IMG/VR virus record: IMGVR_UViG_3300007735_000779
Location: 1 to 64,000 of that record
Source of the DNA: a virus
Direction: 5' to 3' (one strand)
DNA: 64,000 bases
A program made the translations under genes and the position numbers. Below, in pieces: positions 7,349-63,986 of this stretch. How positions within the stretch are numbered: position 1 is the first letter of the stretch; every line of letters starts with the position of its first letter. The notes below the pieces were generated by a model that was not told the origin of the DNA, searched no databases, and saw only the letters and a list, made by a program, of their open reading frames with translations.

Positions 7349-7354
7349 ATGTGC

Positions 7355-8383
7355 ATGGACAATGACGTTAAATTGGATTTTTCGGATGTATTGATTGTTC
7401 CTAGAGTAAGTGACGTGAAGTCAAGAAAAGACGTAAGTCTTGAAGTAGGAACAAATTTTAACTGCGGATCTAGATGGGATGGCGTGCCAATCATGGCAGC
7501 TAACATGTCTACGGTCGGTACACACGAAATGGCTCTTGTGTTGTCAGAATACAAGATAGTCACCTGCCTTAAAAAAGGCGGAGAGTACTATATTAATTTT
7601 GCCACAAGTCATCCAGACAAAGAAAAATATGTTTCATTGACTCTTGGTTTGGATGCCGAGAGTAAATTGTTTGTTGATAGTTCTGAGATTTCCGATCCTA
7701 CGTTTGTTTGCATTGATGTTGCAAATGGATACATGACAGAATTTCATAATTTTATAAAGAAAGTGAGACAGAAATGGCCGAAGTCAATACTGATTGCCGG
7801 AAATGTTGTGACCCCAGAGGGGGTGTTGGCGCTGTACGGTGCTGGAGCAGACCTCGTAAAGGTGGGAATTGGGTCGGGATCGATGTGCCTGACACGACGA
7901 GTGGCCGGAGTGGGGTATCCTCAACTCTCGGCGGTTCTAGAGTGTGCGGAAACAGCCGCAGCGTTAGGTATTGGGATCGTATCTGATGGTGGAATTGTAT
8001 ATCCTGGTGATATTGCAAAATCTTTTGTGGCTGGAGCAGCTTTTGTCATGGCGGGAGGAATATTTGCGGGACACGATGAGTGTGGAGGAGAGATTCGGCC
8101 ATCTGCCTCGGGGGAACTACACATGCTTCACTACGGAATGTCTAGCAAAACCGCAAACGAAAAGTATAATGGTGGACTTTCCACCTATCGGGCTTCGGAG
8201 GGTCGAACTGTCGAGGTTCCATACCGAGGATCTGTTAGAAACACTGTTCAGGACATCCTTGGCGGATTGCGTTCTGCTTGCTCTTACGTGGGTGCTTTTA
8301 ACTTGCCTGATTTGTATACTTGTGGTAAAATGGTGAGAGTTAATCGCACCATAAACAAAGTCTTTGAAAGCCACGAAATATGA
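7355..8383 (+). CDS. guaC: GMP reductase
   Basis: The enzyme converts GMP to IMP with NADPH, releasing ammonia, and so feeds guanine nucleotides back toward adenine nucleotides. The 342-residue TIM-barrel protein has LDFSDVLIVP at the start, the nucleotide-binding and catalytic loop GIGSGSMCLTR with Cys178, the YGMSS motif at 260-264 and YRASEGRTVEVPY at 278-290. The last two distinguish GMP reductase from IMP dehydrogenase; no CBS domain is present. ATG 7355 is preferred to 7349 because the -10 box ends at 7348, implying a leaderless mRNA. It overlaps the next gene by 4 bp (ATGA). It may supply adenine precursors for an AT-rich genome. Confidence 0.92.
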   Translation: MDNDVKLDFSDVLIVPRVSDVKSRKDVSLEVGTNFNCGSRWDGVPIMAANMSTVGTHEMALVLSEYKIVTCLKKGGEYYINFATSHPDKEKYVSLTLGLDAESKLFVDSSEISDPTFVCIDVANGYMTEFHNFIKKVRQKWPKSILIAGNVVTPEGVLALYGAGADLVKVGIGSGSMCLTRRVAGVGYPQLSAVLECAETAAALGIGIVSDGGIVYPGDIAKSFVAGAAFVMAGGIFAGHDECGGEIRPSASGELHMLHYGMSSKTANEKYNGGLSTYRASEGRTVEVPYRGSVRNTVQDILGGLRSACSYVGAFNLPDLYTCGKMVRVNRTINKVFESHEI

Positions 8384-49111: not shown

Positions 49112-50608
49112 TTATAATTTGATCTTGAACGCTTTGTAGTCAAACTTTTCTTTTTGATATATCTTCACTCTTTGTTCAAAGTGTTTTAGTACATGGTTTT
49201 TGTGGCTCTTCCAAGAAAGATCATCAACAATGTCAAATACTTTCAATGTTGTTTTCTTCGTTGAAGTTCGGAGTCCTCTTCCAATGCTCTGTAGAAGTCG
49301 TATAACAGACTTTGTAGGGGAAGCAAAGATGATGTTGTCCAGATGGACGATGTTGATTCCTGTACTTGTAGTACCGAAGGAAGCGACAAGGATAGCGTTT
49401 GTCTCTTTGTCGATGATTCTTCTGATTGCTTCGCGATTTTCTGCGTCAGTTTTCCCCGAAATGAAATAAACTTTCTTATTTGGGTATTTGGATTTGATTG
49501 CTTCATATAAAGGCTTTCCGTGCTTATCCACATAATTGAACAGGACCAAGGTATTTCCCTCGGTTTCTCCACAAAGTTTGACAATAAAATCGTTTCTTGG
49601 CAAATTTTCTACTAAGTACCCCATCTCCTCGGAATACTTCAATTTTTTGACCCGGTTCCTAGATTCATCGTCATAATCCAGAACAATACAGTCTATGGCA
49701 AGTTTGGCCAGAACTCCTTTGCCTATCAGCCCCTTCGTTGTTATAAACTGTATAGAGGGCCCTAGCGTGCCCTCTATTGAGAGTTTATGGGCCAAGGTAT
49801 GGTCAAGCGTCCCCGTAGTTCCGACGCGTATAAAGGCATTCTCCAGCTTTTTGCCAATGTTTACCAATGAGTCCGCCTTTACCAGATGGCACTCGTCAAA
49901 AATTACAGCATCGAACTGTTGGAACCAATCTTTTGGTAATTTATAGACGGATTGCCATGTTGATATGACTATTGGCTTATTTGTTAATTTTTCCTTGCCA
50001 GCCGTAATTTTATGTACAAATTTTGTAGTAGACCAGGATTTGTCATTCTTGGAATAGTCAAAGAAGTCAGATTCCATCTGCTGAACCAGACCAACGGTGG
50101 GAACCAAAAGAAGGATTTTCTTGGGTGACTGTAAAAGGTACTTCAAAATGTACCGAATAATGACATAAATTATTAATGATTTACCGCTGCCCGTGGGAGA
50201 CACAATAACAGACCTACAGTTTTTGAGTGCGTGTATCACTGCTTTTTTCTGGTGGTCGTGTGCTTGTGCTGGCTTTCCCTTTACGGTCACGTTTAGCGTT
50301 TTAAAAAATTGGTCAAAGATACCATCATCCATGTCAATGTGTTTAACATCTTTTTCGTCAAATACAATGTAGTACCCTCTTTCTTCGCAAAATTTTTGAA
50401 GATATGATTTCAATCCCCTAGGGAGTGTAGAACTGTTTATTTCGTACAGTTTTATTTTGCCATCCCATATCCTGGATTTGTACAATGGCATATATTCAGC
50501 TCCGGGAACTTTAAATGAAAAGTAAGACCGAAGTTCTCTTTTTACAGATTCTTCACAATCAATTTTATATTTCGTTTGATCCTCTGCGGATGCTATAATT
50601 GTATACAC
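49112..50608 (-). CDS. uvsW: Helicase UvsW
   Basis: The 498-residue superfamily 2 helicase unwinds R-loops and branched DNA; in T4 it switches origin-dependent to recombination-dependent replication late in infection. The N-terminus (KIDCEESVKRELRSYFSF ... SRIWDGKIKLY) is UvsW-specific. Walker A SPTGSGKS is near residue 137, DECH near 237 and motif VI QSIGRGLR near the end. No ATG exists at the start; an in-frame stop lies just upstream, leaving TTG 50611 or GTG 50608. GTG is favoured because CATAAATA ends 6 nt before it. Late timing agrees with T4. Confidence 0.93.
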   Translation of the reverse strand: MYTIIASAEDQTKYKIDCEESVKRELRSYFSFKVPGAEYMPLYKSRIWDGKIKLYEINSSTLPRGLKSYLQKFCEERGYYIVFDEKDVKHIDMDDGIFDQFFKTLNVTVKGKPAQAHDHQKKAVIHALKNCRSVIVSPTGSGKSLIIYVIIRYILKYLLQSPKKILLLVPTVGLVQQMESDFFDYSKNDKSWSTTKFVHKITAGKEKLTNKPIVISTWQSVYKLPKDWFQQFDAVIFDECHLVKADSLVNIGKKLENAFIRVGTTGTLDHTLAHKLSIEGTLGPSIQFITTKGLIGKGVLAKLAIDCIVLDYDDESRNRVKKLKYSEEMGYLVENLPRNDFIVKLCGETEGNTLVLFNYVDKHGKPLYEAIKSKYPNKKVYFISGKTDAENREAIRRIIDKETNAILVASFGTTSTGINIVHLDNIIFASPTKSVIRLLQSIGRGLRTSTKKTTLKVFDIVDDLSWKSHKNHVLKHFEQRVKIYQKEKFDYKAFKIKL

Positions 50609-50614
50609 CAATAA

Positions 50615-50627: not shown

Positions 50628-51065
50628 TCAAGAAATGCCATTTACAAGTTTGTTCCAATCAATAGCAGACTTAATGGCAAAGTTTCTGTTTGAAAGAACT
50701 TTAAGAAAGTCCTCTACCATCTTTACCTTAGTCTCTGCTATGTTAAGATCCGTCTTGATCTTCAACAATGTTGGATCAGAATCAACAAACTTGTCAACCA
50801 TGGTTTTCATGATGTTCAGTCCAAATGGTTCCTCTCCCCATTCGTCAAGTTCTTCTTTGCTGGCTTTACCTGTGTACAACTTCCACTTTCTCAACTCCAT
50901 GATTGCCAATGCGTTTTTTAACTTTTGGAGTTCGATCTTAAGATCTGCATGTATTGAGAGATACTTACCATGTATTGAAGGAGTCCTTAAGGCTTCTTTA
51001 GCTAACTCTGTAGAGTCTATTAAGGAGTCTTTTTTAATTTCTTCTTTAAGGGTATCTAAAGTCAT
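50628..51065 (-). CDS. uvsY: Recombination mediator UvsY
   Basis: The 145-residue protein loads UvsX recombinase onto gp32-covered ssDNA. Its pattern fits UvsY well: LDTLKEEIKKDSLID, LAKEALRTPSIHGKYLSIHADLK, ELRKWKLYTGKAS, EPFGLNIMKTMVDKFVDSD and LSNRNFAIKSAIDWNKLVNG. It lies just upstream of uvsW on the same strand. The region before its ATG is AT-rich with TATAGT/TATACT boxes but has no Shine-Dalgarno site. UvsX is not in this window. Confidence 0.92.
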   Translation of the reverse strand: MTLDTLKEEIKKDSLIDSTELAKEALRTPSIHGKYLSIHADLKIELQKLKNALAIMELRKWKLYTGKASKEELDEWGEEPFGLNIMKTMVDKFVDSDPTLLKIKTDLNIAETKVKMVEDFLKVLSNRNFAIKSAIDWNKLVNGIS

Positions 51066-51164: not shown

Positions 51165-51842
51165 ATGGTTATAGATCTACGTGAAATACCTACCGTTTGG
51201 ATTAATTTAGACCGGGCAACAAAAAATGCAGCAATGATGGATGCAAGATTCCGTCATCATAGGTTTAAAAATACCCATAGAAAATCAGCAAGAGAAATTG
51301 CGCCACCTGATGACACACCAGACACAATAAAACATTATGTTGGATGCGCACAATCTCATATTGATATTTTAGATGATGTAAACTATTCACATCCTTTATT
51401 AATTTTAGAAGATGATGCCGAATTTACTCCAGACTTTCATCCTATGATTGAAGTCCCAGATGACACAGACGCAGTTTATCTTGGCACATCTGCTGGAAAC
51501 CCTCACTATCTCACAAAACGAGTAAACAAATATTACATGAGAATTGGCAAAATTCTAGCAACTCATGCTATTCTGTATTTAAATCCAGAATACAAAAAAG
51601 CAGTTTCTGACATTGCAAAGATATTTGCATATAGACTGAAGGTTCCATTTGATAATGGATGTGCACTTGTACAGGAACGCTTTAATGTTTTGACTCCAAA
51701 TAAACCTTTTTTTGTTCAAGCAAATGAAAGAGAAAGCGCAAACCAATGGGAAGTTATCACCTCACGCCCCTTGGTAGATAAAAATAGTGACTTTCCTGTT
51801 CGTGAAAAGAATGTGCAATTAGCAATACAGGTGCCAGCATGA
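51165..51842 (+). CDS. GT25-like glycosyltransferase, paralog A
   Basis: This 225-residue protein has the GT25 pattern: IPTVWINLDRATKN at the N-terminus, GCAQSHIDILDD, then PLLILEDDAEFT (the acidic EDD that binds metal and nucleotide sugar) and IEVPDDTDAVYLGTS. ILATHAILYLNPEYKKAVSDI and a Pro/Phe-rich C-terminus follow. GT25 enzymes transfer galactose or glucose to LPS or protein. It is first in the glycan island; two other copies follow at 52624/52665 and 53982. It overlaps the next gene by 4 bp. Confidence 0.8.
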   Translation: MVIDLREIPTVWINLDRATKNAAMMDARFRHHRFKNTHRKSAREIAPPDDTPDTIKHYVGCAQSHIDILDDVNYSHPLLILEDDAEFTPDFHPMIEVPDDTDAVYLGTSAGNPHYLTKRVNKYYMRIGKILATHAILYLNPEYKKAVSDIAKIFAYRLKVPFDNGCALVQERFNVLTPNKPFFVQANERESANQWEVITSRPLVDKNSDFPVREKNVQLAIQVPA

Positions 51843-52627
51843 TATCATGTCAAAGTTTGGGATCAATGGGAAGACTTGGAAATCAGATGTTTCAGTATGC
51901 AACTTTGTATGCTACTGGAAAAACGTTAGGATATGAAATAGGTGTTCCATATCACATACGCAGCAAAAACGATAAGTTAGATTTTTGCCTTTCCGATGCC
52001 TTTAATCTTTCTGCAAAAGATTCTTCTGGAAAGTATTTTGGTTCTCTTTATATGGAACCGCAGTTTAATTACGATTCTAATATTTTAAATATACCAGATG
52101 GGTGTGATATTAAAGGGTATTTTCAAAGTGAAAAATATTTTAAACAGTATAGATATGATTTACAAGATACTGAATTTAAATTTAAAGACATTATCAACAA
52201 ACAAGTCGAACAGCTGTTTGCTGGCAATGATTCTGAATTAATATCTGTTCATATCAGACTTGGAGATTATTTACAGCTGCAAGATTGCCATCCCGTCTGC
52301 TCTGTAGATTATTATAAGAATGCTTTGGACTTGCTTCCAAAAGATTGTCAAATTGTTTTGTTTAGTGATGATTATCCCCAAGCTTTGCAACTGTTCAAAT
52401 CATTTGGTTTGAATGTAATGCTTACGGGCGGAAATGATAAATTTGTTGATATGTGTATGATGACTAAATGCAATTATCATGTAATCGCAAACAGTTCTTT
52501 TAGTTGGTGGGGAGCTTGGCTGTCTAAAAGTAAAAAAACAATTGCTCCCAAGACCTGGTTTGGCAATTCTCCTAATGTTGCAAAAAATTGGGATGATATC
52601 TACTGCGATGAATGGGAAGTGATATGA
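51839..52627 (+). CDS. GT11 alpha-1,2-fucosyl(colitosyl)transferase
   Basis: This 262-residue enzyme transfers L-fucose, or L-colitose, from the GDP-sugar to a galactose 2-OH. All GT11 hallmarks are intact: GRLGNQMFQYA (11-21), the HIRLGDY site for GDP (138-144) and NSSFSWWGAWL (218-228). FSDDYPQALQLF is also typical. The GDP-donor can be made by the products encoded at 57478-60604. It is followed by GT25-like and GT6 genes. Its TGA overlaps an ATG (52624) of the next, frame-interrupted gene. Confidence 0.93.
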   Translation: MISCQSLGSMGRLGNQMFQYATLYATGKTLGYEIGVPYHIRSKNDKLDFCLSDAFNLSAKDSSGKYFGSLYMEPQFNYDSNILNIPDGCDIKGYFQSEKYFKQYRYDLQDTEFKFKDIINKQVEQLFAGNDSELISVHIRLGDYLQLQDCHPVCSVDYYKNALDLLPKDCQIVLFSDDYPQALQLFKSFGLNVMLTGGNDKFVDMCMMTKCNYHVIANSSFSWWGAWLSKSKKTIAPKTWFGNSPNVAKNWDDIYCDEWEVI

Positions 52628-53294
52628 TAATTGATATACCATCAGTAAAAACGTTTATGTAAACATGGACAATAAAGTTGAACGAAAAGATCAAACAGAA
52701 AAACTGTTATCTAGTTTAAAGTTTACTGATTACCAACGTTATTCCGCAAAAACTGGACAAAATGCTATAGAAGGTTGTGCATTATCTCATATAGACATTT
52801 TAAGATCAAATAAAAATAATACTCCATTTCTAATATTAGAAGATGACGTAACAACTGGAGAATTTTATAAAAAAATAATTGAAGTTCCAGATGATGCAGA
52901 TGCAATTTATTTGGGATATTCTATGTGGGGGTTTGACAAAGAACGAGCTAAAAAATTTTCTAGAATGGATAATCCAACTTCATTTAAAAAAATTACAAAT
53001 AACATATACAAAATATCAAATATGTTATCTACACATGCAATTATGTATTGCAGTGAACGATATTCAACAGCTGTAGCTGATATTATGGAAACTATTTGGA
53101 ACCAAGAACAGTGGCACTGCGATTATGCATGTGCTTTAATACAGGAAGAGTTTAACGTTTACGCGCCTTCTAATCCATATTTTTTCCAATATGATTATTG
53201 GACAATGCCTTGGACCTGCGTTTCTTTTGATAATTTTTATACAACAAATTGTGAATACAAAAAGGCAATAAATGACCCAAGACTTAATCCCTAA
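52624..53294 (+). CDS. GT25-like glycosyltransferase, paralog B, apparently frameshifted near the start
   Basis: From ATG 52665 the readable protein has 209 residues and shows GCALSHIDIL, FLILEDDVTTG, IEVPDDADAIYLGYS and LSTHAIMYCSERYSTAVADI, as in paralog A. Its N-terminal strand is missing from that frame. ATG 52624, coupled to the preceding stop, reads MIIDIPSVK, and a -1 shift at the A5 run 52647-52651 continues NVYVNMDNKVERKDQ, which restores the GT25 start I-x-x-V-x-V-x-x-x-x. The gene therefore carries a one-base indel (true or sequencing) or a slippery site. Starting at 52665 would lose a core strand. Confidence 0.7.
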
Positions 53295-53976
53295 TGTAGG
53301 TTTATTGATTGTAGCTACAAATAAATATATTTCTTTTGTTCAAAACTTGGTAGATAGTGCTGATAAATGGTTTTTACCAGAATGTAATGTTACTTATTGT
53401 GTTTTTACCAATACTCCAAAACAATTAAATACGTCTAATTCTTTCAATATGATGCATATTGAGCATGAGCCTTGGCCTGCACCAACACTTAAAAGATATG
53501 ATTATTTTGATCAATATGCAGATTATTTAAAAAATTTTGATTATTTGTATTATTGTGATGCCGACATGCGCTTTGTTAATTCAGTTGGAAGTGAAATTTT
53601 AGAAGAATTGGTTTCTACTTCACATCCGGGATTTTGGGATAAATTAAATTTACAGTTTTCTTATGAAAGGCGTCCAAATTGTAAAGCATATATTCCATTT
53701 GGAAAAGGAAATGGATATTATGCTGGTGGTTTTAACGGTGGAAGCTCAAATGAGTTTTTAAAAATGGCTAAAACAATTGTGTATTGGCGAAAAGAAGATG
53801 AAAGAAACAATATAATTCCAATTTGGCATGATGAAAGTTATATGAATAAATACCTATACCTGAATTTGCCTACAAAAGTACTAAACCCAAGTTATTGTTA
53901 TCCTGAAGCTTGGAACTTACCTTTTGAAAAAAAATTGTTGGCATTAGATAAAAATCACAGTGAAATGAGAAATTAA
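53272..53976 (+). CDS. GT6 (ABO blood-group family) glycosyltransferase
   Basis: The 234-residue protein has the family 6 pattern in order: RYDYFDQY, YYCDADM with the metal-binding D96-A-D98, YERRP (131-135), GYYAGGFNGGSSNEF (148-162) and WHDESYMNKY (185-194). GT6 enzymes add alpha-1,3 Gal or GalNAc, and ABO-type ones use Fuc-alpha-1,2-Gal as acceptor. The A-G-G tripeptide lies where human A and B enzymes differ; Gly in the third place resembles the GalNAc (A) type. No membrane anchor is present, as in bacterial and phage relatives. It overlaps the previous gene by 23 bp. Confidence 0.9.
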   Translation: MTQDLIPNVGLLIVATNKYISFVQNLVDSADKWFLPECNVTYCVFTNTPKQLNTSNSFNMMHIEHEPWPAPTLKRYDYFDQYADYLKNFDYLYYCDADMRFVNSVGSEILEELVSTSHPGFWDKLNLQFSYERRPNCKAYIPFGKGNGYYAGGFNGGSSNEFLKMAKTIVYWRKEDERNNIIPIWHDESYMNKYLYLNLPTKVLNPSYCYPEAWNLPFEKKLLALDKNHSEMRN

Positions 53977-53981
53977 TTTTT

Positions 53982-54626
53982 ATGAAAATAAATTTAAATG
54001 AAATTTTAACTCTATGGTATGGTGGAATAAAACCACATCGTCTTGAATTGATTCAAAATACCATAAGTGAGTTGAATTTAAAGGCAAAACACGTACCCAC
54101 AACTGTTTCCGATGCTGCTGTTGGATTTGTTAGAATTGGCTGTTCAAGTAGCCATAAAAATGCATTAGAAGAAAGCATGAAACATTCTGGTCCTGTTTTA
54201 ATTTTAGAAGACGACGCTAGCCCAAGCAAATGGTTTACAAATACAATTGAAATACCCGATGATGCAGATGCTTTTTATGCAGGAACTTGTTTAAATGCAA
54301 TCCATCCTTATTGGGAAAAAATGGGTCCTGATGAAGGATGTTGTGGTGAACTGGAAGTATTAGGATCATATGATAATTTTTATAAAATTTCTAAAATGCT
54401 AACCACACATGCAATTATATACATTTCAGACAAATATAAAAAAGATTGTTATGATTTATTGCATGAAAATAATGGAAAAAGGTATTTGGATGTTTTATTT
54501 GCTAGCAGAATGCACAAATATAATGTATATGCACCAAAATATCCTTTATTTTATCAAAATTGCGAAAAAGAAAACTATGATGCATACATAAAAACCATAA
54601 CACCACTTGTAAGTATATTAAATTAA
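53982..54626 (+). CDS. GT25-like glycosyltransferase, paralog C
   Basis: The 214-residue protein is the third copy: GCSSSHKNALEES, PVLILEDDASPSKWF, IEIPDDADAFYAGT and MLTTHAIIYISDKYKKDCYDL. It shares the EDD core but is otherwise diverged from A and B, so it may have another acceptor or donor. It lies 5 bp after the GT6 gene. Confidence 0.75.
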   Translation: MKINLNEILTLWYGGIKPHRLELIQNTISELNLKAKHVPTTVSDAAVGFVRIGCSSSHKNALEESMKHSGPVLILEDDASPSKWFTNTIEIPDDADAFYAGTCLNAIHPYWEKMGPDEGCCGELEVLGSYDNFYKISKMLTTHAIIYISDKYKKDCYDLLHENNGKRYLDVLFASRMHKYNVYAPKYPLFYQNCEKENYDAYIKTITPLVSILN

Positions 54627-54636
54627 TATACTAATT

Positions 54637-54644
54637 CATAAATA
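54637..54644 (+). promoter_or_regulatory. Possible late promoter (CATAAATA) inside the glycan island
   Basis: CATAAATA ends 9 nt before ATG 54654, the first gene after a 27-bp gap. It would allow late expression of the downstream genes. Confidence 0.45.
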
Positions 54645-54653
54645 TTTTTAACT

Positions 54654-55280
54654 ATGCAAGAAGTATTTTATAATAGTATTAAGTGGGAAAATTCTGATTT
54701 ATCTAATTGGCATGTTGAAAATACAAAATATAATTTTTTATATAATTATAAATTTGATACAAACTCTACAGTTGTTGATATTGGATCTTATAATGGCACT
54801 TGGTTAAAAACCATTACTAGCATGTATGGCTGTTATGGGTTGGGTTTGGAACCCGTGAATAAATTTTATTTAGAAAGTTTAAATCATATTAACGATAAAC
54901 TCCAGTTTATAAATGCTGGTATAACTATAAAAAATGAGCATAAAGTAAAAATAAATTTAAACGTAGACAGCACTAACATTATGTCTACTGGAGGTGACTG
55001 TGAAGTTACTTTAATAAATGTTATAGATTTTTTAAATAATCTTTGTTTTAAACAAATAGATTTACTTCAAATTAATATTGAAGGATACGAATATGAGTTA
55101 TTGCCATATATGATTGAAAATAATTTATTTAATAATATTAATAATTTACAAATACAATTTCACTCAATATCCAATTTAAGTGAAAACAAATATATGGATA
55201 TAAAAAAGAAATTAAATGAAATAGGATTTAAAGATACTTTTGATTTTAAACTTGTCTGGTATGGAGCAACAAAAATATGA
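54654..55280 (+). CDS. FkbM-type SAM-dependent methyltransferase
   Basis: The 208-residue protein has the AdoMet site VVDIGSYNGTW (about 41-51), an acidic residue after the second strand (LGLEPVN) and the FkbM hallmark DLLQINIEGYEYELL near residues 137-151. FkbM-family enzymes in glycan clusters O-methylate sugar residues. It overlaps the epimerase gene by 4 bp. The sugar methylated here is unknown; a terminal O-methyl cap on the glycan is a reasonable guess. Confidence 0.82.
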   Translation: MQEVFYNSIKWENSDLSNWHVENTKYNFLYNYKFDTNSTVVDIGSYNGTWLKTITSMYGCYGLGLEPVNKFYLESLNHINDKLQFINAGITIKNEHKVKINLNVDSTNIMSTGGDCEVTLINVIDFLNNLCFKQIDLLQINIEGYEYELLPYMIENNLFNNINNLQIQFHSISNLSENKYMDIKKKLNEIGFKDTFDFKLVWYGATKI

Positions 55281-56179
55281 AATATTTGGTTACTGGCGGA
55301 TCGGGATTTATTGGATCTAATATAGTAGATTTTCTTGTTTCAACGGAAAATGAAGTTATTGTTATAGACAACGAATCTTCTGATGCTCATGATAAATTTT
55401 ATTACAACTTAAAGGCAACTTATTATAAACACTCTGTAGTGGATTATGATATGTGCTCTGAAGTTTTTAAACTCCATAAACCTGATTATGTATTACATTT
55501 GGCAGCAGAAGCAAGAATTCAAAATTGCATTGAAAATCCTACTAAAGCATATGAAACTAATTTAATGGGCACTTTGAATATTTTGGCACTTTGCAAAGAA
55601 TATAAAGTTAAACGATTAGTTCTTTCAACCACATCTGCAATTTATGGTTTAAAAAACACAGGAGCTTTACATGAAGAAATGCCCGCTGACTGTTTAAATT
55701 CATATTCTTTAAGCAAATGGAACGCGGAACATGCATGTAAAATATACAGTTCAATGTATGGGGTGGATACTGTATGTTTAAGATATTTTAATGTATATGG
55801 TCCTCACCAGCCAATAAAAGGTCCATATGCACCAGTTATTGGAATTTTTTCAAAACAACTTTTATCTAATGGACCATTAACGGTGGTTGGGGATGGCGAA
55901 CAAACTAGAGATTATATTCATGTCTTTGATGTTGTACGAGCCAATGTTATGGCCACTAAATACCAAGGACAACTTAACGGAGAAGTATTTAATGTTGGGA
56001 CAAATAAAGCTTATTCTGTAAATGAAATAGCCAAAAAGCTTTCAACTAATATTAAATATTTACCACCAAGAAATGGAGAAGCTAGAGCTTCTCTTGCTAA
56101 TATAGAAAAAATTCAAAATTATTTTGGTTGGAAACCAACAATTGAATTGATGAAATGGATTGATTTAAATTTTAAATAA
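55277..56179 (+). CDS. NAD-dependent sugar-nucleotide epimerase (GalE-like)
   Basis: The 300-residue extended SDR enzyme has the Rossmann motif GGSGFIGS (7-14), LAAEARIQNC, TTSAIYG (118-124) and catalytic Tyr143/Lys147 in YSLSK. RYFNVYGP, VVGDGEQTRDYIHVFDV and a substrate-binding C-terminal region follow. These fit UDP-hexose 4-epimerases (UDP-Glc/UDP-GlcNAc type). It could make UDP-Gal or UDP-GalNAc, the donor for the GT6 enzyme two genes upstream. The exact substrate is not determined by sequence reading. Confidence 0.87.
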   Translation: MKYLVTGGSGFIGSNIVDFLVSTENEVIVIDNESSDAHDKFYYNLKATYYKHSVVDYDMCSEVFKLHKPDYVLHLAAEARIQNCIENPTKAYETNLMGTLNILALCKEYKVKRLVLSTTSAIYGLKNTGALHEEMPADCLNSYSLSKWNAEHACKIYSSMYGVDTVCLRYFNVYGPHQPIKGPYAPVIGIFSKQLLSNGPLTVVGDGEQTRDYIHVFDVVRANVMATKYQGQLNGEVFNVGTNKAYSVNEIAKKLSTNIKYLPPRNGEARASLANIEKIQNYFGWKPTIELMKWIDLNFK

Positions 56180-56191
56180 GAAATGTTATAA

Positions 56192-57112
56192 ATGAGTAAT
56201 TTAATGTTTTGTTTTTATAATCCGGGTCATAATGGTGATATACACTATTCTAGAGAATTTGTTAAAGATATTTGCAAAAAGTTAAATACGACTGCAGAAT
56301 ATGCAATGACATGTTCTACAAATTTGACAAAAGATATAAATTGTTTAACAAATTTTCCTGCTGCAGATATTAATGCACCCAACAATAGCCGTATTATAAA
56401 AAATTTGCATATTTCATTAGAAGATGAAACTTTTTTTGACCAAACCAGTAATACGTTATTCATCAATACGTGGGTCGGCTCATCTCATGTAAAATATTTA
56501 AATCAAGGTGGTGGCTGTTGCCTTGAAAGTTGTTATCTTAAATTTAAACATATATTCAATGATCTAGATATTCCTTTAAATGAAAAAGAATTTTATGTTC
56601 CAGAAATAGATTGGTCTTATTATAATGTTTTAAATATTGATAATTTTATCAATACAAGCAGCTATTCAAAATTTTATCTTTTTTGTAATGGGCCAGTTCT
56701 TTCATGCCAAGCACATAATATTGATTTAAATCCAATAATTTTTCAATTGGCATTAAATAACCCCAACGCAGCTTTTATACTTACAGATAATAGTGTAAAA
56801 ATTGAACTTCCAAATGTTTTTTATACTTCTGATATTACAAAAATCAAAGGTTGCGATTTAAATGAAATAGGATATTTAGCAACTAAATGTAATTTTATTT
56901 TTGGTAGAGCAAGTGGACCATATTGTTTTTCTCACACAAAACAAGTATTAAAAGACAAAACAAAAACACTAATGGCTTTGTGTAATAATAGAAATGATGG
57001 TCTTTGGGCTCCTCCTGAAACATTTAACCAAGAAGAAAAAGCAAAACAACTGTGGACACATCAATATGATGCATCTATGTTGTTCAACGAAATTCAACAT
57101 AATTTAAATTAA
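56192..57112 (+). CDS. Possible glycosyltransferase-like protein of unknown family
   Basis: This 306-residue alpha/beta protein begins SNLMFCFYNPGHNGDIHYSREF, with an N-G-D like the first loop of GT-B enzymes. Its second half has DLNEIGYLATKCNFIFGRASGPYCFSHTKQV, similar in position to donor-site loops of heptosyltransferase-like proteins. No definite family is recognised. It sits 12 bp after the epimerase gene within the glycan island, supporting a sugar role. Confidence 0.6.
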   Translation: MSNLMFCFYNPGHNGDIHYSREFVKDICKKLNTTAEYAMTCSTNLTKDINCLTNFPAADINAPNNSRIIKNLHISLEDETFFDQTSNTLFINTWVGSSHVKYLNQGGGCCLESCYLKFKHIFNDLDIPLNEKEFYVPEIDWSYYNVLNIDNFINTSSYSKFYLFCNGPVLSCQAHNIDLNPIIFQLALNNPNAAFILTDNSVKIELPNVFYTSDITKIKGCDLNEIGYLATKCNFIFGRASGPYCFSHTKQVLKDKTKTLMALCNNRNDGLWAPPETFNQEEKAKQLWTHQYDASMLFNEIQHNLN

Positions 57113-57121
57113 GGTTTATAC

Positions 57122-57475
57122 ATGTCTAATATAGCAGCAGCAATTGAAAATACTATTAAAGAACAAGTTAATTTTATTTTAAACAATAAAGTAAAAAATG
57201 TACCAGATTTGCCAGTAGATATTATTGTTACTGATAATTTGGCAGAAATTATTGAAAAATTAGTAATTCTTCATATTCGAACTTGGTTTTTAGAAGATAT
57301 GGCAGGTGTAGCTAAAAACGATGAAGAACTTGCAAATATAAAAAGAAAAGTAGACATTTGTTTTAAACAAAAAAGACCAATGTATATTCAAGCTATAAAT
57401 AAAATTATAGATGATGCTATTGTTAACAATAAATCTCTTATAGAAAATTCTGTTAAAATTTATAAAAATCATTAA
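57122..57475 (+). CDS. Small helical protein (DUF4254-like)
   Basis: This is a 117-residue helical protein. Its segment LAEIIEKLVILHIRTWFLEDMAG, followed by DEELANIKRKVDICFKQKRPMYIQAINKIIDDAI, resembles the pattern of DUF4254 proteins that accompany LPS-sugar genes. Its biochemical role is unknown. It is 2 bp upstream of the dehydratase/aminotransferase-fold gene. Confidence 0.6.
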   Translation: MSNIAAAIENTIKEQVNFILNNKVKNVPDLPVDIIVTDNLAEIIEKLVILHIRTWFLEDMAGVAKNDEELANIKRKVDICFKQKRPMYIQAINKIIDDAIVNNKSLIENSVKIYKNH

Positions 57476-57477
57476 AT

Positions 57478-58629
57478 ATGGAAACAATTAAATTAGTAAA
57501 AGATACAATTTCTCATGGAGAAATCGATCTTCTATGTGAATGGCTTAAAACGTATCCACAATTAACTAAAGGTCCACTTACAGAAGAATTTGAAAATTTG
57601 TGGGCAAATTGGCTAGGGACAAAGTATGCAGTTTTTGTAAATTCAGGATCGTCTGCTAATTTAGCTATGCTTTATGCTTTGAAGATATCCAATAGACTTA
57701 AAAATAATAAAATTGTCTTACCATGTGTTTCGTGGGTTACTACAGTTAGTCCCGCAATGCAATTTGGAATGGAACCTATTTTATGCGAAACAGACAAAGA
57801 AACACTTGGACTTGATGTTGCTGCATTTGAAAAAATCTGTAAAGAAGAAAATCCATCGTGTGTGTGTATAGTACACGTTTTAGGAATTCCAAATAAATTA
57901 AAAGAAATTCAAAATATTTGTACAAAGTATGATGTCATACTATTGGAAGATTCGTGTGAGAGTGTAGGATCTTTATATGAAGACAAACAAACTGGTACGT
58001 TTGGATTGATGTCTTCTTTTTCTACTTACTTTGGTCATCATTTTTCAACAATTGAAGGTGGATTTGTATGTACAGATGATTTTGAATTGTATGAAATTTT
58101 AAAATCAATACGGTCCCATGGATGGAGTAGAGATCTATCAGAAAAAACAAAAAAACAGCTTCAATTTGAAAATAAAATAGATGATTTTAAAAATTTTTAT
58201 ACTTTTTATTATCCAGGATTTAATCTAAGAGCAACAGATGTTCAAGCATTCTTGGGTATCAGTCAACTTAAAACTTTAAAAGACAAAAATTTAAAAAGAT
58301 ATAATAATTTAAAATTATATGATTCTCTTATACATAACACTTATTGGAAATTAAAATTTAATAGTTTTATTAGTAATTTTGCGTATCCAATAATACATCC
58401 ATTAAAAAATAAAATTGCTGAAGCATTACAGCAATCAAAAATTGAATGCAGACCTCTTATTTGTGGTAGTATGTCCAGACAACCATTTTTTTATAAACAA
58501 TATGGCTTGAAAGAATATAATTTTGCAGACATTATTCACGAATACGGATTGTATATTCCAAATAATCCAGAAATGTCTGTAGAAGAAATTACACACATTT
58601 CAAATGTTGTGAATTCAATTATTGTGTAA
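57478..58629 (+). CDS. colD-like: PLP-dependent ColD-like sugar 3-dehydratase
   Basis: The 383-residue protein has the DegT/aminotransferase fold: NSGSSANLAMLYAL near 55-69, the PLP-stacking ILLEDSCESVGSLY (154-167) and YFGHHFSTIEGG (184-195). In aminotransferases of this family the last segment carries a Lys that binds PLP; here it is His187-His188. The same Lys-to-His change defines GDP-4-keto-6-deoxymannose 3-dehydratase (ColD) and related 3-dehydratases. It would turn the Gmd product into a 3,6-dideoxy sugar, leading to GDP-colitose with the reductase next door. A rival, ordinary aminotransferase activity is unlikely without Lys. Confidence 0.82.
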   Translation: METIKLVKDTISHGEIDLLCEWLKTYPQLTKGPLTEEFENLWANWLGTKYAVFVNSGSSANLAMLYALKISNRLKNNKIVLPCVSWVTTVSPAMQFGMEPILCETDKETLGLDVAAFEKICKEENPSCVCIVHVLGIPNKLKEIQNICTKYDVILLEDSCESVGSLYEDKQTGTFGLMSSFSTYFGHHFSTIEGGFVCTDDFELYEILKSIRSHGWSRDLSEKTKKQLQFENKIDDFKNFYTFYYPGFNLRATDVQAFLGISQLKTLKDKNLKRYNNLKLYDSLIHNTYWKLKFNSFISNFAYPIIHPLKNKIAEALQQSKIECRPLICGSMSRQPFFYKQYGLKEYNFADIIHEYGLYIPNNPEMSVEEITHISNVVNSIIV

Positions 58630-58642
58630 TTTAGGAATTTTT

Positions 58643-59587
58643 ATGAATAAAAATGATAAAATATTTGTAGCTGGCCACAGAGGATTGGTTGGTTCTGCTT
58701 TAATAAGAAAGCTTAAAGAAAATGGTTTTACGAATTTAATTACTAAAACTAAAGATGATTTGGATTTAAGAAATCAAATAGATGTAAAATATTTTTTTGA
58801 TAAAGAACAACCAGAGTATGTATTTTTAAGTGCGGCAAAAGTGGGTGGTATTGGATGGAATAAAAATTGTCCAGCAGAATTTATTTACGACAATTTGCAA
58901 ATACAAAATAATATTATACATAGTTCACATTTAAACAAAGTTAAAAAATTATTATTTTTAGGATCAGCATGCATATATCCTAAGATAACACCACAGCCAA
59001 TTAAAGAAGAATATTTAATGACCGACCAGTTAGAACCAACAAATGAAGGCTACGCTTTGTCAAAAATTGTTGGTTTAAAGATGTGTCAATATTATAAAAA
59101 ACAATATGGATTTGATGCTATATCTCTTATGCCTGCAAATTTATACGGAATTAATGATAATTTTAACATAGAAAAATGTCATGTTATACCCGCATTGATA
59201 CGTAAATTCATTGATGCAAAGGAAAATAATGACACATCTATAGTATGTTTTGGTGATGGTACTCCTACAAGAGAATTTTTATTTGCAGACGATCTTGCAG
59301 ATGCCTGTTTGTTTTTAATGCAAAATTATCATTCATCGGAAATAATTAATGTTGGATCTGGTATAGATGTTACAATTAAAGAATTAGCAGAAACAATAAA
59401 AAATAAAATAGGATTTTCTGGACAAATAATTTGGGACACAACAAAACCAAATGGTACTCCTCTTAGAAAAATTTGCAATAAAAAAATAAACTCAATGGGT
59501 TGGTTTGCTAGTACAAAATTAGAAGACGGAATATCTAAAACAATAGACTGGTACTTAGAAAATAGAAAAAATTATTATAGAAATTAA
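58643..59587 (+). CDS. fcl: GDP-L-fucose synthase-like reductase (Fcl/ColC)
   Basis: This 314-residue SDR enzyme 3,5-epimerises and reduces GDP-4-keto-6-deoxymannose to GDP-L-fucose; the homologous ColC acts on the 3-deoxy compound to give GDP-L-colitose. Motifs are VAGHRGLVGSA (9-19), AAKVGGI, FLGSACIYPK with Ser108 and Cys110, Tyr137/Lys141 in YALSK, MPANLYGINDNF and His180 in KCHVIPA. The usual GSSC is GSAC here. ATG 58643 is preferred because AGGA precedes it. Confidence 0.9.
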   Translation: MNKNDKIFVAGHRGLVGSALIRKLKENGFTNLITKTKDDLDLRNQIDVKYFFDKEQPEYVFLSAAKVGGIGWNKNCPAEFIYDNLQIQNNIIHSSHLNKVKKLLFLGSACIYPKITPQPIKEEYLMTDQLEPTNEGYALSKIVGLKMCQYYKKQYGFDAISLMPANLYGINDNFNIEKCHVIPALIRKFIDAKENNDTSIVCFGDGTPTREFLFADDLADACLFLMQNYHSSEIINVGSGIDVTIKELAETIKNKIGFSGQIIWDTTKPNGTPLRKICNKKINSMGWFASTKLEDGISKTIDWYLENRKNYYRN

Positions 59588-59614
59588 TTTACTTTTAACA
59601 AATAAAGATATAAT
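59588..59614 (+). promoter_or_regulatory. Weak sigma70-like promoter before gmd
   Basis: TATAAT at 59609-59614 lies exactly 6 nt before ATG 59621. The best -35 is TTTACT at 59588 with a 15-bp spacer. The transcript would be leaderless. Confidence 0.5.
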
Positions 59615-59620
59615 AAAAAC

Positions 59621-60604
59621 ATGAATAAAACTGCTTTAATTATTGGTGCTAATGGTCAAGATGCTTCTTATGCTGCAGAATTTTTAATAGAAAAGGGCTA
59701 CCAAGTGCATGGTACAATTCGTAGAAATTCAGTACCAGAATCTCAAACTACCAGAATAGAACATCTTCATGAAAAAAATTTAATAACTTTACATTATGCA
59801 GATCTAACAGATGCAATTAGTATTGAAACGGTAATACAAAAAACACAACCACATGAAATTTATCATCTAGGCGCACAGTCGCATGTTCAAATTTCATTTG
59901 ATCTTCCACAGTATACATTAGATGTAAATGGCGGAGGAACTTTAGCGGTTCTTGAAGCCGTTAGAAGATTTTCTCCACATTCAAAGGTGTATCATGCGGC
60001 AACATCCGAGATGTTTGGTAATTCATGTGATAGTGACGGGTACCAAAGAGAAACAACTCCTATGGTGCCAGTTAGTCCATATGGATGTGCTAAATTATAT
60101 GCACACACTTTATGCAGAAATTATTCTCAATCTTACGGAATGTTTGTTTGTTCTGGAATTTTATTTAATCACGAATCTCCTAGAAGAGGGATTAACTTTG
60201 TAACTAATAAAGTTGCTCTTCAAGCCGCAAAAATTAAATTGGGAATGGACGATAAACTTATTCTTGGAAATCTTTATGCTAAAAGAGACTGGGGACACGC
60301 AAAAGACTATGTAGAAGCTATGTGGCTTATGTTACAACAAAACTCTCCAGACACTTTTGTCATATCAACTGGCGAAACTCGCACAGTAAAAGACATGGTT
60401 GAATATGTTTTTAACAAAGTAGATTTAGATGTAAATAAATATGTTCAAACTGCGGATAAATATTGTAGACCAGAAGAACTTCATTATCTTCGTGGCGATT
60501 CTACAAAAGCTAAAACAATTTTGAATTGGTCTCCAAAAATTACATTTACATCAATGATGGATGAAATGGTTGATTATTGGATGAATAAACTACAAAAAAT
60601 TTAA
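59621..60604 (+). CDS. gmd: GDP-mannose 4,6-dehydratase
   Basis: The 327-residue SDR enzyme converts GDP-D-mannose to GDP-4-keto-6-deoxy-D-mannose, the common precursor of GDP-fucose and GDP-colitose. Motifs are IIGANGQDASY (7-17), GTIRRNS with TRIEHL, AATSEMFG (126-133) with the catalytic Thr/Glu, Tyr154/Lys158 in YGCAK, and NHESPRRGINFVT. The host must supply GDP-mannose since no manB/manC is seen here. It has its own -10 box immediately before the ATG and no Shine-Dalgarno site. Confidence 0.96.
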   Translation: MNKTALIIGANGQDASYAAEFLIEKGYQVHGTIRRNSVPESQTTRIEHLHEKNLITLHYADLTDAISIETVIQKTQPHEIYHLGAQSHVQISFDLPQYTLDVNGGGTLAVLEAVRRFSPHSKVYHAATSEMFGNSCDSDGYQRETTPMVPVSPYGCAKLYAHTLCRNYSQSYGMFVCSGILFNHESPRRGINFVTNKVALQAAKIKLGMDDKLILGNLYAKRDWGHAKDYVEAMWLMLQQNSPDTFVISTGETRTVKDMVEYVFNKVDLDVNKYVQTADKYCRPEELHYLRGDSTKAKTILNWSPKITFTSMMDEMVDYWMNKLQKI

Positions 60605-60651: not shown

Positions 60652-61221
60652 ATGGCAAAGGGCAAAGTAAAGAAAAAGAAAAAAGATAGTGATGACTACG
60701 TAGATAACTCACGATTATATCAAGAACTGGTTGACTTCAAGAAGAAGAGAGAAGCGGCCGAAAGCGCAGGAAAGAAACAACCAAAGTTACCTGATTACGT
60801 AGGCGAATCAATATTAAAGATAGCAACTAGATTATCTTTTCGGCCCAACTTTGCCAACTATAGCTACCGCGAGGAGATGGTCTCCGACGCGGTTTTAAAT
60901 TGCATTACATACATTAATAACTTTGACCCGGATATCTCAAAGTCTCCGTTTGGTTATCTCACACAGATTTGCTGGTTCTCCTTTGTTCGTATCATCAACA
61001 AGGAAAAGAAGGAAAAGTACATCCAGTTCAAGTTGGCTCATTCAAAGAATGACCCAGAGTTTCACAAGTGGTTCAATGAAAAGTTCTCTGGTGTGGAGAA
61101 CGGTTTCAAGGACGCATTTGGCATTGGAGAGGCCGAGGTAGAAAAGATGGACAAGCTTCTTGAAGGAAAGCGCAAAGGAAGAAAGAAGAAGAATACAGAT
61201 GGAGGTTCATTGAATGTGTAA
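60652..61221 (+). CDS. 55: Late sigma factor gp55
   Basis: This 189-residue protein directs RNA polymerase to the TATAAATA late promoters. Residues ~62-122 correspond to sigma region 2: SFRPNFANYSYREEMVSDAVLN, NNFDPDISKSPFGYLTQICWFSFVRIINKEKKEKY. The N-terminal ~50 residues and the C-terminal part before SLNV are basic. The C-terminus is where T4 gp55 binds the sliding clamp. It works with gp33 (22943). The early promoter with no leader agrees with a need for synthesis before late transcription. It overlaps gene 47 by 8 bp. Confidence 0.92.
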   Translation: MAKGKVKKKKKDSDDYVDNSRLYQELVDFKKKREAAESAGKKQPKLPDYVGESILKIATRLSFRPNFANYSYREEMVSDAVLNCITYINNFDPDISKSPFGYLTQICWFSFVRIINKEKKEKYIQFKLAHSKNDPEFHKWFNEKFSGVENGFKDAFGIGEAEVEKMDKLLEGKRKGRKKKNTDGGSLNV

Positions 61222-62272
61222 GGCAGTCGTTCTGAATGATACTCATTTTGGTTTCAAGGGCGATTCTACCATAGTCAATGAATACTTTATAAAGTTCTTT
61301 GAGGAACAGTTGTTTCCTTATATTGAAGAGAACAAGATTCAATATGTATTTCACCTTGGTGATTTCTTTGACCGCCGAAAATACATCAACTTTCGTACAC
61401 TAAACCAGGTTCGCGAAAGAATTTTAAATGTATTTGATAAGTTAGGAACGGAAAATCATATCATTTGCGGAAACCATGATACCTTTTTTCGAAACAACAA
61501 TTCTTTAAATTCGCTTAACGAACTTCTTGGGAAGCACAACAACTGGAACATATATTCCGAGCCATCGGTTTTGAACTTTGGCCCCAATAAAGAATATTGC
61601 GTTGCACTTCTTCCTTGGATAAACTCCGAGAACGAAGAGCAAGCCGCAGAGTTCATTAGGGATGTTCCTTGTTCTGTTCTGCTCGGTCACCTTGAATTGG
61701 CCGGATTCCAGAGCATCAGAGGCGTCTTTATAGACGCAGGGTATGATCCCAATCAGTTTGCAAAGTTTGAATACGTCCTTACTGGACATTATCACGTTTC
61801 CTCCAAGCGAGACAACATTCATTATCTGGGCACCCAATACCAAATGGCATTCTCCGATGTGTGGGAGAAAAAGGGATTCCATGTATTTGACTTTGCCACA
61901 AGAGAACTTCAATTCATAGAGAATCCAAGGAAGTTGTTCTTCACTTTGGACTATAACGAAGATCAAGATCTTAAGATCAATCCAGAAGAATACAAAGATA
62001 CATTTGTGAAGATCTTCATAAAGAAGAAGACCAAACCCGCAAAGTTTGAAAAATTCATAGATCAGTTCTACAATGCAGGTGTTGCTGAATTGGCAATAGC
62101 AGAAGAGCCAATCCAAGAAAAGACGGATTTGGATATTGACATTGAAAAGGACACTCTGCAGTTGCTATATGAAGAGGCAAATGCCCTTACAGAAAACCTT
62201 GACAAAAACTTTTTACACGATATAATTACTACCACATACCAAAATGCTTTGGCTGGTGATTTAGATGATTGA
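61214..62272 (+). CDS. 47: Recombination nuclease subunit gp47 (Mre11/SbcD-like)
   Basis: The 352-residue protein is the calcineurin-like nuclease that, with gp46, resects DNA ends for recombination-dependent replication. The metal motifs are in order: NDTHFG (8-13), HLGDFFDRR, ICGNHDTF, LLGHLE and TGHYH. The C-terminal region has ETDLDIDIEKD-type acidic residues and binds gp46. It overlaps 55 and 46. Confidence 0.95.
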   Translation: MCKAVVLNDTHFGFKGDSTIVNEYFIKFFEEQLFPYIEENKIQYVFHLGDFFDRRKYINFRTLNQVRERILNVFDKLGTENHIICGNHDTFFRNNNSLNSLNELLGKHNNWNIYSEPSVLNFGPNKEYCVALLPWINSENEEQAAEFIRDVPCSVLLGHLELAGFQSIRGVFIDAGYDPNQFAKFEYVLTGHYHVSSKRDNIHYLGTQYQMAFSDVWEKKGFHVFDFATRELQFIENPRKLFFTLDYNEDQDLKINPEEYKDTFVKIFIKKKTKPAKFEKFIDQFYNAGVAELAIAEEPIQEKTDLDIDIEKDTLQLLYEEANALTENLDKNFLHDIITTTYQNALAGDLDD

Positions 62273-63986
62273 ATTTAAAAAAGTAAGATTAAAGAACTTT
62301 GGTTCGTTTGGCAATAACTTCAGCGAGATTGATCTGGACACAAAGAAACTTACCTTGGTCACGGGAGTGAATGGCCACGGAAAGTCTTTTGCATTTCTGG
62401 ATTCGCTGACATTTGTTCTATTTGGCAAACCGTTCAGGCCGATTAACATCCCCCAACTTGTCAATAGCGTCAATTCAAAGAACTGTGTCGTAGAGATTGA
62501 GTTCAACAAGGGAAAGAATTCCTACTTGGTTCGCCGTGGCTTGGGTCCAAAGATATTTGAGATCTTTAAAGACGGCAAACTGATTGACCAGAATGCGAAG
62601 TCCAAGGACTACCAAGAGATGCTTGAGCAGAGCATTCTTGGCTTCAGTTATGCTGCATTCAAACAAGTTGTAATTCTGGGCAAAAGTTCATTTATACCAT
62701 TCATGCAACTTACGCCAGCAGAAAGAAGAAAGATCATTGAAGGTCTTTTGGATCTTGACATAATTGCGGCTATGGGATCCGTGGTCAAGTGCAAGCTTTC
62801 TGATCTAAAGACCGAACTTCATACAAATGAAAGTTTACTCAAGATTGCTAAGGAAAAGCTCAAGTCACAGAATGAGATCCTAAAGGAAGTCAAGCAAAAT
62901 TATATTGATCTTGTTGATAAAAACAATAAGAAAAAAGAAGAACTTATTGGCAAGGAAAAGGAAATTGCAGATCAATATAAAGAAAAAACTGATGCTGTTC
63001 AATCGGTAAAAACTAAAATTTTATCAATTGAAAAGGAAATTCAAAAATTAAAAAATATTGTTGCCATTGAAAACAAAATGCGTGTACAATATGAAACTCT
63101 TTCCGAAGAAATTGCAAATACGGAAGCACAACAGTCCTGTACATGCTGTGGCCAGGATTTGTCTGAATCCGCTAAATGTAAGATCCTCGGGGATAAATAT
63201 ACTAAGCGTGATGAATTTTTAACAGCGTTGGACGAGATCGCTATAAAGGTAAAGGACCTTACGGAGATAGAATCCAAGCGAGACGAACTGCAGTCAGCGC
63301 TGAAACGGGAAACCGTTGATCAAAGTGTTCTTCAAAAAGAAAAACAAATCCTCCAGAATCGAATTGAAGAGATAACAGAGGAAGTGGAAGAATTGGAGAA
63401 GAAGCACTTGGATAATAATGAAATCTATGATAGAATTAAAATCACAGAGCAAGATATCCGAGATAAGACGGAGATTTTTGAAAAAGCAGTCAAGGAGCAG
63501 ATTCATTATGATGTTGTTTATGATCTCCTGCGTGATAGTGGCCTAAAGAGCAAGATCATCAAGCACTATGTGCCCATCATCAATAACTACGTCAACAAGT
63601 ATCTGGAAAAGTTGAATCTCTATGTTGATTTCAATTTAAATGAAGAATTCAAGGAAACAATCAAATCTCGCTATAGAGATGAGTTCTCTTATTCTTCCTT
63701 CTCAGAAGGCGAGAAGCAAAGAATTGATTTGGCCATTCTTCTCACATGGAGAGAGATTGCCAAGATGAAGAACAGCCTAAACTGCAATCTGCTCATCTTT
63801 GACGAGATCCTAGACTCCTCATTGGATGGAACAGGAACAGAGACATTCCTCAAGATGCTTTCAAAGATGAAATCTAAATGTTCGGTTTTTATTATATCAC
63901 ACAAAAGTGATCAATTGATTGATAAATTTGACCAAGGAATTCAAGTAGAAAAGAAAAACAACTTTTCAAAGATTAAAAATGTTTAA
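62265..63986 (+). CDS. 46: Recombination ATPase subunit gp46 (Rad50/SbcC-like)
   Basis: The 573-residue ABC-type ATPase has Walker A GVNGHGKS (34-41), a Q-loop, a long coiled coil (~175-460) with the zinc hook CTCC at 292-295, signature SEGEKQRIDLA near 480 and Walker B LLIFDEILD near 508-516. It partners gp47. It overlaps gene 47 by 8 bp (the ATG of 46 lies before the stop of 47). The gene is complete, ending 14 bp before the window edge. Confidence 0.95.
   Translation: MIEFKKVRLKNFGSFGNNFSEIDLDTKKLTLVTGVNGHGKSFAFLDSLTFVLFGKPFRPINIPQLVNSVNSKNCVVEIEFNKGKNSYLVRRGLGPKIFEIFKDGKLIDQNAKSKDYQEMLEQSILGFSYAAFKQVVILGKSSFIPFMQLTPAERRKIIEGLLDLDIIAAMGSVVKCKLSDLKTELHTNESLLKIAKEKLKSQNEILKEVKQNYIDLVDKNNKKKEELIGKEKEIADQYKEKTDAVQSVKTKILSIEKEIQKLKNIVAIENKMRVQYETLSEEIANTEAQQSCTCCGQDLSESAKCKILGDKYTKRDEFLTALDEIAIKVKDLTEIESKRDELQSALKRETVDQSVLQKEKQILQNRIEEITEEVEELEKKHLDNNEIYDRIKITEQDIRDKTEIFEKAVKEQIHYDVVYDLLRDSGLKSKIIKHYVPIINNYVNKYLEKLNLYVDFNLNEEFKETIKSRYRDEFSYSSFSEGEKQRIDLAILLTWREIAKMKNSLNCNLLIFDEILDSSLDGTGTETFLKMLSKMKSKCSVFIISHKSDQLIDKFDQGIQVEKKNNFSKIKNV

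Follow-up and report, generated by a model that had tools for sequence, protein, structure and literature searches.

Which glycan would be built by the sugar genes of a T4-like phage of bacteria, and what would carry it? The question is raised by a stretch of 64,000 nucleotides (the window) that covers the greater part of a virus record of 67,333 bases, IMGVR_UViG_3300007735_000779 of IMG/VR. The major capsid protein encoded there is 53-54% identical to its counterpart in Synechococcus T4-like phages. The glycan island consists of twelve genes at 51165-60604 (9.4 kb), all intact open reading frames (ORFs) on the plus strand, and its G+C content is 29.9%, against 39.1% in the remainder. An earlier reading of the letters alone (the sequence-only reading) listed GT11, GT6, GalE-like, gmd, fcl-type, ColD-like and FkbM genes, all of which were found as intact plus-strand ORFs. 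It placed the island start at 51839, but the first GT25-like gene begins before that position, and its list included neither the GT-B-fold protein nor the DUF4254-like one. On balance we lean towards a cytosolic phage cassette whose product would be a branch like the H/A blood-group structure, probably as a 3-deoxy version: colitose, which is fucose minus one oxygen, probably stands in place of or beside fucose.

Three steps lead from GDP-mannose to GDP-L-colitose (reviewed in PMC8987622), and Gmd, ColD and an Fcl-type reductase together account for them. The GDP-mannose 4,6-dehydratase Gmd (59621-60604) scored 328 bits to human GMD and 385 bits to TIGR01472, under the 415 cut-off of that model. 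The ColD-type GDP-4-keto-6-deoxymannose 3-dehydratase (57478-58629) has E. coli ColD (2gms) as its best solved match with 216 bits, compared with 140 bits for E1, the next enzyme type. Histidine takes the place of the aminotransferase lysine, with GHHFSTIEGG aligned to SHHIATMEGG of E. coli ColD. H187 and H188 occur in 59 of 59 phage sequences, a count that is partly by construction because the set was picked by a His-containing motif; the automatic motif missed L339 and L340 (HHLTSIEGG; L-numbers denote the compared viral loci), which were added by hand. The score to the NCBIfam RfbH model was 198 bits, far under its cut-off of 423. Between the window and a second phage with the full gene set, the ratio of nonsynonymous to synonymous substitution rates (dN/dS) of ColD was 0.14, indicating purifying selection. 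The catalytic His and the difference in score ruled out both an ordinary aminotransferase and an E1/RfbH enzyme; judged by its sequence, ColD is a genuine 3-dehydratase.

The Fcl-type epimerase/reductase (58646-59587; 327 bits to E. coli GDP-fucose synthase, GFS) has S107, C109, Y136, K140 and H179, the same set as E. coli GFS. This retention suits a simpler explanation, in which Gmd and Fcl supply GDP-L-fucose to an H-type GT11 and an A- or B-type GT6 while ColD is a side branch or of minor importance. The gene set Gmd-Fcl-GT11-GT6-GT25-GalE without ColD is also the commoner one, found in 14 of 65 non-redundant GT6 loci, compared with 10 of 65 that have Gmd, GT11 and ColD. We nevertheless consider a plain fucose pathway unlikely, since ColD is intact in this island, keeps its catalytic His and evolves under the constraint given above, and since the reductase sits in a ColD-linked clade, where the loci of its close kin nearly all hold ColD, L319 excepted. 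In a tree of 98 reductases, made without a characterised ColC sequence, the window enzyme fell inside a clade of 61 rows (Shimodaira-Hasegawa-like approximate likelihood ratio support 95). Of these rows 52 were ColD-positive and seven apparently ColD-negative, two of the seven holding ColD on inspection. Outside the clade lay most reductases from ColD-free loci and the Fcl of E. coli K-12, and the ColD label changed 11 times over the tree against 30.4 times in shuffles (0 of 500 as low). A bacteria-only phylogeny did not separate Fcl from ColC, whereas the larger phage set clustered clearly, although with an imperfect split. Among bacterial loci retrieved by a ColD search, ColD often adjoins Fcl and Gmd. 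We predict that the phage reductase is ColC-like, preferring the 3,6-dideoxy substrate. Because a true ColD with its catalytic His accompanies a reductase of the ColD-linked clade, the donor made at home is most likely GDP-L-colitose (3-deoxyfucose) and not simply GDP-fucose. In the earlier claim that the phage makes its own donors apart from GDP-mannose, the identity of the deoxyhexose needs correction. Elsewhere in the window, an IMP dehydrogenase/GMP reductase-type gene (7349-8383; PF00478, 225 bits) might affect the guanine nucleotide pool for GDP-sugars.

The GT11-type protein (51839-52627) matched PF01531 with 86.7 bits (cut-off 23.9) and is predicted to be an alpha-1,2 deoxyhexosyl, that is fucosyl or colitosyl, transferase. 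The sequence-only reading had made its case depend on the catalytic residues of GT11 and GT6. In GT11, H138, R140 and D143 are present, together with N218, S219 and the NSSFSWW stretch (NSS-SWW motif), but the second Arg of the HxRRGD motif is replaced by Leu141. The structure model, built with alignment rows from viral contigs only, has a mean predicted local distance difference test score (pLDDT) of 93.6 and shows the GT-B fold of the GDP-fucose transferase superfamily; its top 50 structural matches are POFUT1, NodZ, FUT8 and AtFUT1 (E 6e-8 to 1e-5). The GT11 enzymes WbgN and FUT2 take both GDP-colitose and GDP-fucose in vitro (PMC11987014, PMC12723683). Since such enzymes accept both donors, the donor that the phage makes may decide the GT11 product. 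A GT11 tree marked by ColD status showed clustering, yet with so many label changes that it is no proof of donor specificity.

The GT6 (ABO-family) transferase (53272-53976) matched PF03414 across the catalytic domain with 165.8 bits (cut-off 25) and the NCBIfam model Gltr_6 with 214 bits, under its cut-off of 250. Its best solved relatives are Bacteroides BoGT6a (183 bits) and the human ABO transferase (150 bits); BoGT6a, H. mustelae BgtA and human GTA/GTB belong to the same family over the full catalytic domain and have the same catalytic residues. All GT6 residues checked by alignment are intact: D96xD98, H118, WHDES at 185-189 with E188 in the nucleophile position, and K227. The columns of D96, D98, W185, D187, E188 and K227 are invariant across 95 distinct phage GT6 sequences. 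The donor pocket, YYAGG, is like that of BoGT6a, with Gly, Ala and Gly aligned to the human ABO determinants 235, 266 and 268. Because of this pocket, and following the established ABO donor rules, the predicted donor is GalNAc (A type); the earlier claim of extension with Gal or GalNAc holds in that the GT6 is genuine, but the two are not favoured equally. The enzyme is predicted to transfer Gal/GalNAc in alpha-1,3 linkage onto a (deoxyhexosyl) galactoside. BoGT6a is a GalNAc transferase whose acceptor is fucosyl-lactose (2'-fucosyl-lactose) (PMC3961637). The metal-binding DxD was found in 95 of 95 phage GT6 sequences, whereas bacterial GT6 enzymes nearly all have NxN; metal need tracks the motif in the two enzymes studied, and the one bacterial enzyme studied is metal-independent (PMC3961637). 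The phage enzymes may form a lineage distinct from the bacterial GT6 already described. The window GT6 also has no membrane anchor, unlike the bacterial and human ABO-type proteins compared.

The GalE-type UDP-sugar 4-epimerase (55277-56179; 199 bits to T. maritima GalE, 4zrm) has Y143 and K147, and in an alignment to K-12 GalE a small gatekeeper, S272, stands where the E. coli enzyme has Y299. This position is S, T or N in 57 phage sequences. The small gatekeeper is compatible with N-acetyl sugars, that is with a UDP-GlcNAc/GalNAc 4-epimerase. The three genes called GT25-like are present as ORFs, but their labels are weak (Pfam GT25, PF01755, cut-off 24). Protein a (51165-51842) scored 19.5 bits, below the cut-off, and matched phrog_24091 with E=7.6e-37; protein b (52665-53294) scored 24.1 bits, at the cut-off; protein c (53982-54626) has no Pfam match, and its ortholog in L389 matches protein a with 57 bits. 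The FkbM-type methyltransferase (54654-55280) matched PF05050 with 28.5 bits (cut-off 22.7). The DUF4254-like small helical protein of 117 amino acids (57122-57475) reached a Pfam E-value of 0.0032, below the cut-off.

Do these genes travel together in other phages? A profile-guided GT6 scan returned at least 588 viral stretches, of which the best 80 were read. Within 8 kb of these 80 GT6 genes there were GT11 in 63 loci, GalE in 53, Gmd in 40, Fcl in 31 and ColD in 12, compared with zero for all five in 69 T4-like background loci. Since the GT6 and Fcl seeds pick loci near the query, these co-occurrence counts, and those that follow, measure linkage and not overall frequency. GT11 was present in 51 of 65 non-redundant GT6 loci and in 19 of 59 Fcl-seeded sugar islands (p=2e-7); the figures for GalE were 41/65 and 4/59 (p=1e-11). 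The same-strand order Gmd-Fcl-GT11-GT6-GT25-GalE recurs across phage loci, with ColD placed after Fcl and before GT11 in L409, L418, L437, L440 and L464. Versions of the cassette recur in dozens of other phages, and this recurring order supports the blood-group-like reading. Chance or mis-annotation of the island was ruled out by the strong profile scores, the purifying selection and the recurrence in independent phages. The GT6 and GT11 are genuine, have the residues checked (apart from one replaced Arg in the GT11 motif) and travel with GalE and GDP-sugar genes, so a joint H/A-type pathway is a good inference. The H/A/B-like glycan proposed earlier is supported by the linkage of GT6, GT11, GalE and GDP-sugar genes, far above background; its sugar is probably a 3-deoxy form, and the A type is favoured.

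The pathway as predicted from the sequences would run as follows. Gmd would convert GDP-mannose of the host to GDP-4-keto-6-deoxymannose, from which ColD would strip the C3 oxygen. The Fcl/ColC-type reductase would then epimerise and reduce the product to GDP-L-colitose, possibly with some GDP-L-fucose. GT11 would place colitose or fucose in alpha-1,2 linkage on galactose, and GT6 would add GalNAc in alpha-1,3 linkage to the same galactose, the GalE-type epimerase providing UDP-GalNAc (or UDP-Gal). The GT25-like, GT-B and FkbM proteins may add or cap other residues.

Several observations weigh against this pathway. The split in the reductase tree is not clean: some ColD-positive loci have reductases of the fucose clade, and the enzymes of L437 (ColD-positive) and L463 (ColD-negative) group as sisters. 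The Arg replaced by Leu141 in the window GT11 is present in 86 of 108 phage GT11 sequences; variation at this second motif residue does not track ColD presence. A GT11 76% identical to that of the window occurs in L006, a complete island without ColD or Fcl, and GT11 need therefore not depend on colitose. Finally, a gene for a GT-B-fold (GT9-like) protein of 306 amino acids (56192-57112) was found in 32 of 57 ColD-positive and 0 of 67 ColD-negative loci, tracking ColD more strictly than GT11 does.

This GT-B protein, which has no Pfam match, is a second candidate user of the dideoxy sugar. Its model is of low confidence (pLDDT 65), with weak matches to the GT9 structure 3tov and to WaaC. The gene accompanies that of the DUF4254-like protein in 30 of 34 loci holding either. 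Among ColD-positive loci, 26 of 32 with the GT-B gene lack GT11 and 19 of 23 without it have GT11, although the 8-kb limit of the flanks produces part of this exclusion: in L022-type islands GT11 lies about 9.5 kb from Fcl. The distribution suits an arrangement with two deoxysugars: the GT-B protein would transfer the phage-made colitose, and GT11 and GT6 would build an H/A motif at another place on the glycan, from GDP-fucose that the host makes or that arises as a by-product. We regard this arrangement as doubtful, given the flank effect, the low-confidence model and the lack of a second reductase for GDP-fucose among the island genes seen. L409, L418 and L440 have ColD and one GT11 with no GT-B gene detected, which makes GT11 the obvious colitosyl transferase candidate there. 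The window and L389 carry both genes, and in the window either protein could be the colitosyl transferase.

The likeliest target of the glycan branch is the phage's own virion proteins, the alternative being cytosolic precursors of a host surface glycan. Modification of a lipid-linked host glycan, for receptor masking or superinfection exclusion, would fit any of the donors discussed. WbgN, a characterised GT11 colitosyl transferase, acts on glycolipids (PMC11987014), and cytosolic enzymes could use lipid-linked intermediates of the host without phage membrane proteins. On the other side, no island protein has a transmembrane-like stretch, two hydrophobic stretches being flagged among the other window ORFs checked. 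No carrier-lipid initiating transferase or other carrier-lipid enzyme, flippase, polymerase or ligase was recognised among the Pfam and PHROG matches of the scanned proteins, many of which have no family match. A host-surface target is a possibility to be taken seriously, though we do not expect it. The window also encodes a protein of 2050 amino acids (13236-19388) with weak RCC1-like repeats, a cysteine-rich start and no PHROG match, a possible glycan acceptor. T4-like phages glycosylate hydroxymethylcytosine, and by this precedent the island could serve hypermodification of DNA bases in place of protein or lipid glycosylation. Such a role is very improbable: GT6, GT11 and GalE are sugar-acceptor families, the cassette order is of the oligosaccharide-locus type, and no hydroxymethylase was recognised among the scanned window proteins. 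A DNA methyltransferase gene lies at 3138-4103 (phrog_116, 308 bits). The only Rfam match was to tRNA.

The island is bounded by constant edges. On the left is a UvsW-like helicase gene (49112-50611, minus strand; 83-85% identity in relatives with differing islands), followed by a gene for a conserved 145-amino-acid protein (50628-51065, minus strand) that adjoins uvsW in relatives. On the right (60652-63986, plus strand) are genes for a conserved 189-amino-acid protein (60652-61221; 84-90% in relatives), a gp47-like recombination nuclease (61214-62272; 79-81% in eight relatives with differing islands) and a gp46-like recombination nuclease (62265-63986) that adjoins gp47 in relatives. One contig, represented by L122 and L389, has all twelve island genes at 67-85% amino-acid identity, except gmd at 49%. 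Its dN/dS against the window was about 0.07-0.23 for eleven genes and 0.32 for gmd, a different allele; these values are rough because dS is near saturation. In L006 the edges are 81-90% identical and GT6 78%, but ColD, Fcl and the GT-B gene are missing and a UDP-galactopyranose mutase is present instead. In L307 the edges are only 57-68% identical, yet the reductase is 91%, Gmd 80% and ColD 77% identical; distant edges with close donor genes point to transfer of the donor module between phage lineages. Islands of the L022 type hold two GT10 genes and a FUT8/NodZ-like gene, together with a split transketolase that neighbours ColD. In L022 (7377-11158), L027, L125 and L127, ColD adjoins the split transketolase pair and a further short-chain dehydrogenase/reductase, suggesting a branched 3,6-dideoxy sugar, presumably caryophyllose- or yersiniose-like. 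The Fcl-seeded loci L339, L363 and L373 have E1/RfbH-type dehydratases (motif YPAHHITMGEGG) about 7 kb or less from Gmd and Fcl, a hint that other dideoxy sugars are made as well. The island exchanges modules much as an O-antigen locus does, while its uvsW and gp47/46 edges stay fixed. By that analogy, the swapping of gene content suggests that the product is a surface antigen under diversifying pressure. With low confidence we further propose that the virion carries a 3-deoxy A-antigen, GalNAc-alpha-1,3-(L-colitose-alpha-1,2)-Gal, and that relatives switch between fucose and colitose by gain or loss of ColD in one cassette, which would give swappable particle serotypes.

How far is such a cassette already known? 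By 2014 GT6 was on record for two cyanophages (PMC3961637), and adjacent GT6 and GT11 genes are annotated in cyanophage genomes. Sugar clusters of P-SSM2, S-CAM9, Bellamy, ACG-2014f and other cyanophages likewise encode GT6 next to GT11 or close to it, frequently accompanied by nucleotide-sugar epimerases, and the ACG-2014f cluster also has gmd, fcl and ColD, as in the window. They differ in their genome position, close to hli or photosynthesis genes or to tRNAs; most are without ColD, and their GT6 is only 26-45% identical to that of the window. No photosystem genes were found in the window record or in nine related records. In the P-SSM2 cluster (L004) a 2-oxoglutarate-Fe(II) oxygenase is annotated at 5360-5971, and hydroxylation preceding glycosylation is conceivable. 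Two very large uncultured phages, L003 (LR756502, 642 kb) and L033 (LR745206, 635 kb), have GT6 46-48% identical to that of the window, a little above the values for the cyanophage copies; ColD and Fcl are present in L003 as well. Outside phages, the colitose pathway of E. coli O55/O111 with WbgN comprises the same Gmd, ColD and reductase plus a GT11 transferase. The present set differs in being phage-borne, with no O-antigen flippase, polymerase or ligase identified, and in its GT6, which would give an A-like and not an O55/O111-like structure. Bacterial blood-group mimicry loci (E. coli O86 WbnI, H. mustelae BgtA) place an alpha-1,2-deoxyhexose on galactose and then alpha-1,3 Gal/GalNAc (general knowledge, PMC12723683); the window locus differs from them in being viral and in its likely 3-deoxy donor. 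In the open-access literature searched (subscription papers lay outside the search), neither a colitose pathway in a phage nor this cassette was found described. Phage GT6 as such had been known before; what appears to be new is the colitose variant, together with the recurring cassette.

Discussion of ABO-family enzymes usually treats them as vertebrate genes that have relatives scattered among bacteria. With at least 588 viral GT6 stretches, and most of the best 80 near GT11 and GalE, many of them in an ordered cassette that includes GDP-deoxysugar genes, phages are a large and little-studied reservoir of blood-group-type pathways. Their enzymes are ready tools for the synthesis of A/H glycans and of glycans that bear colitose. 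The O-antigen-like exchange of modules at a single locus provides a testable case for variable sugar coats that some phages wear or impose on their hosts.

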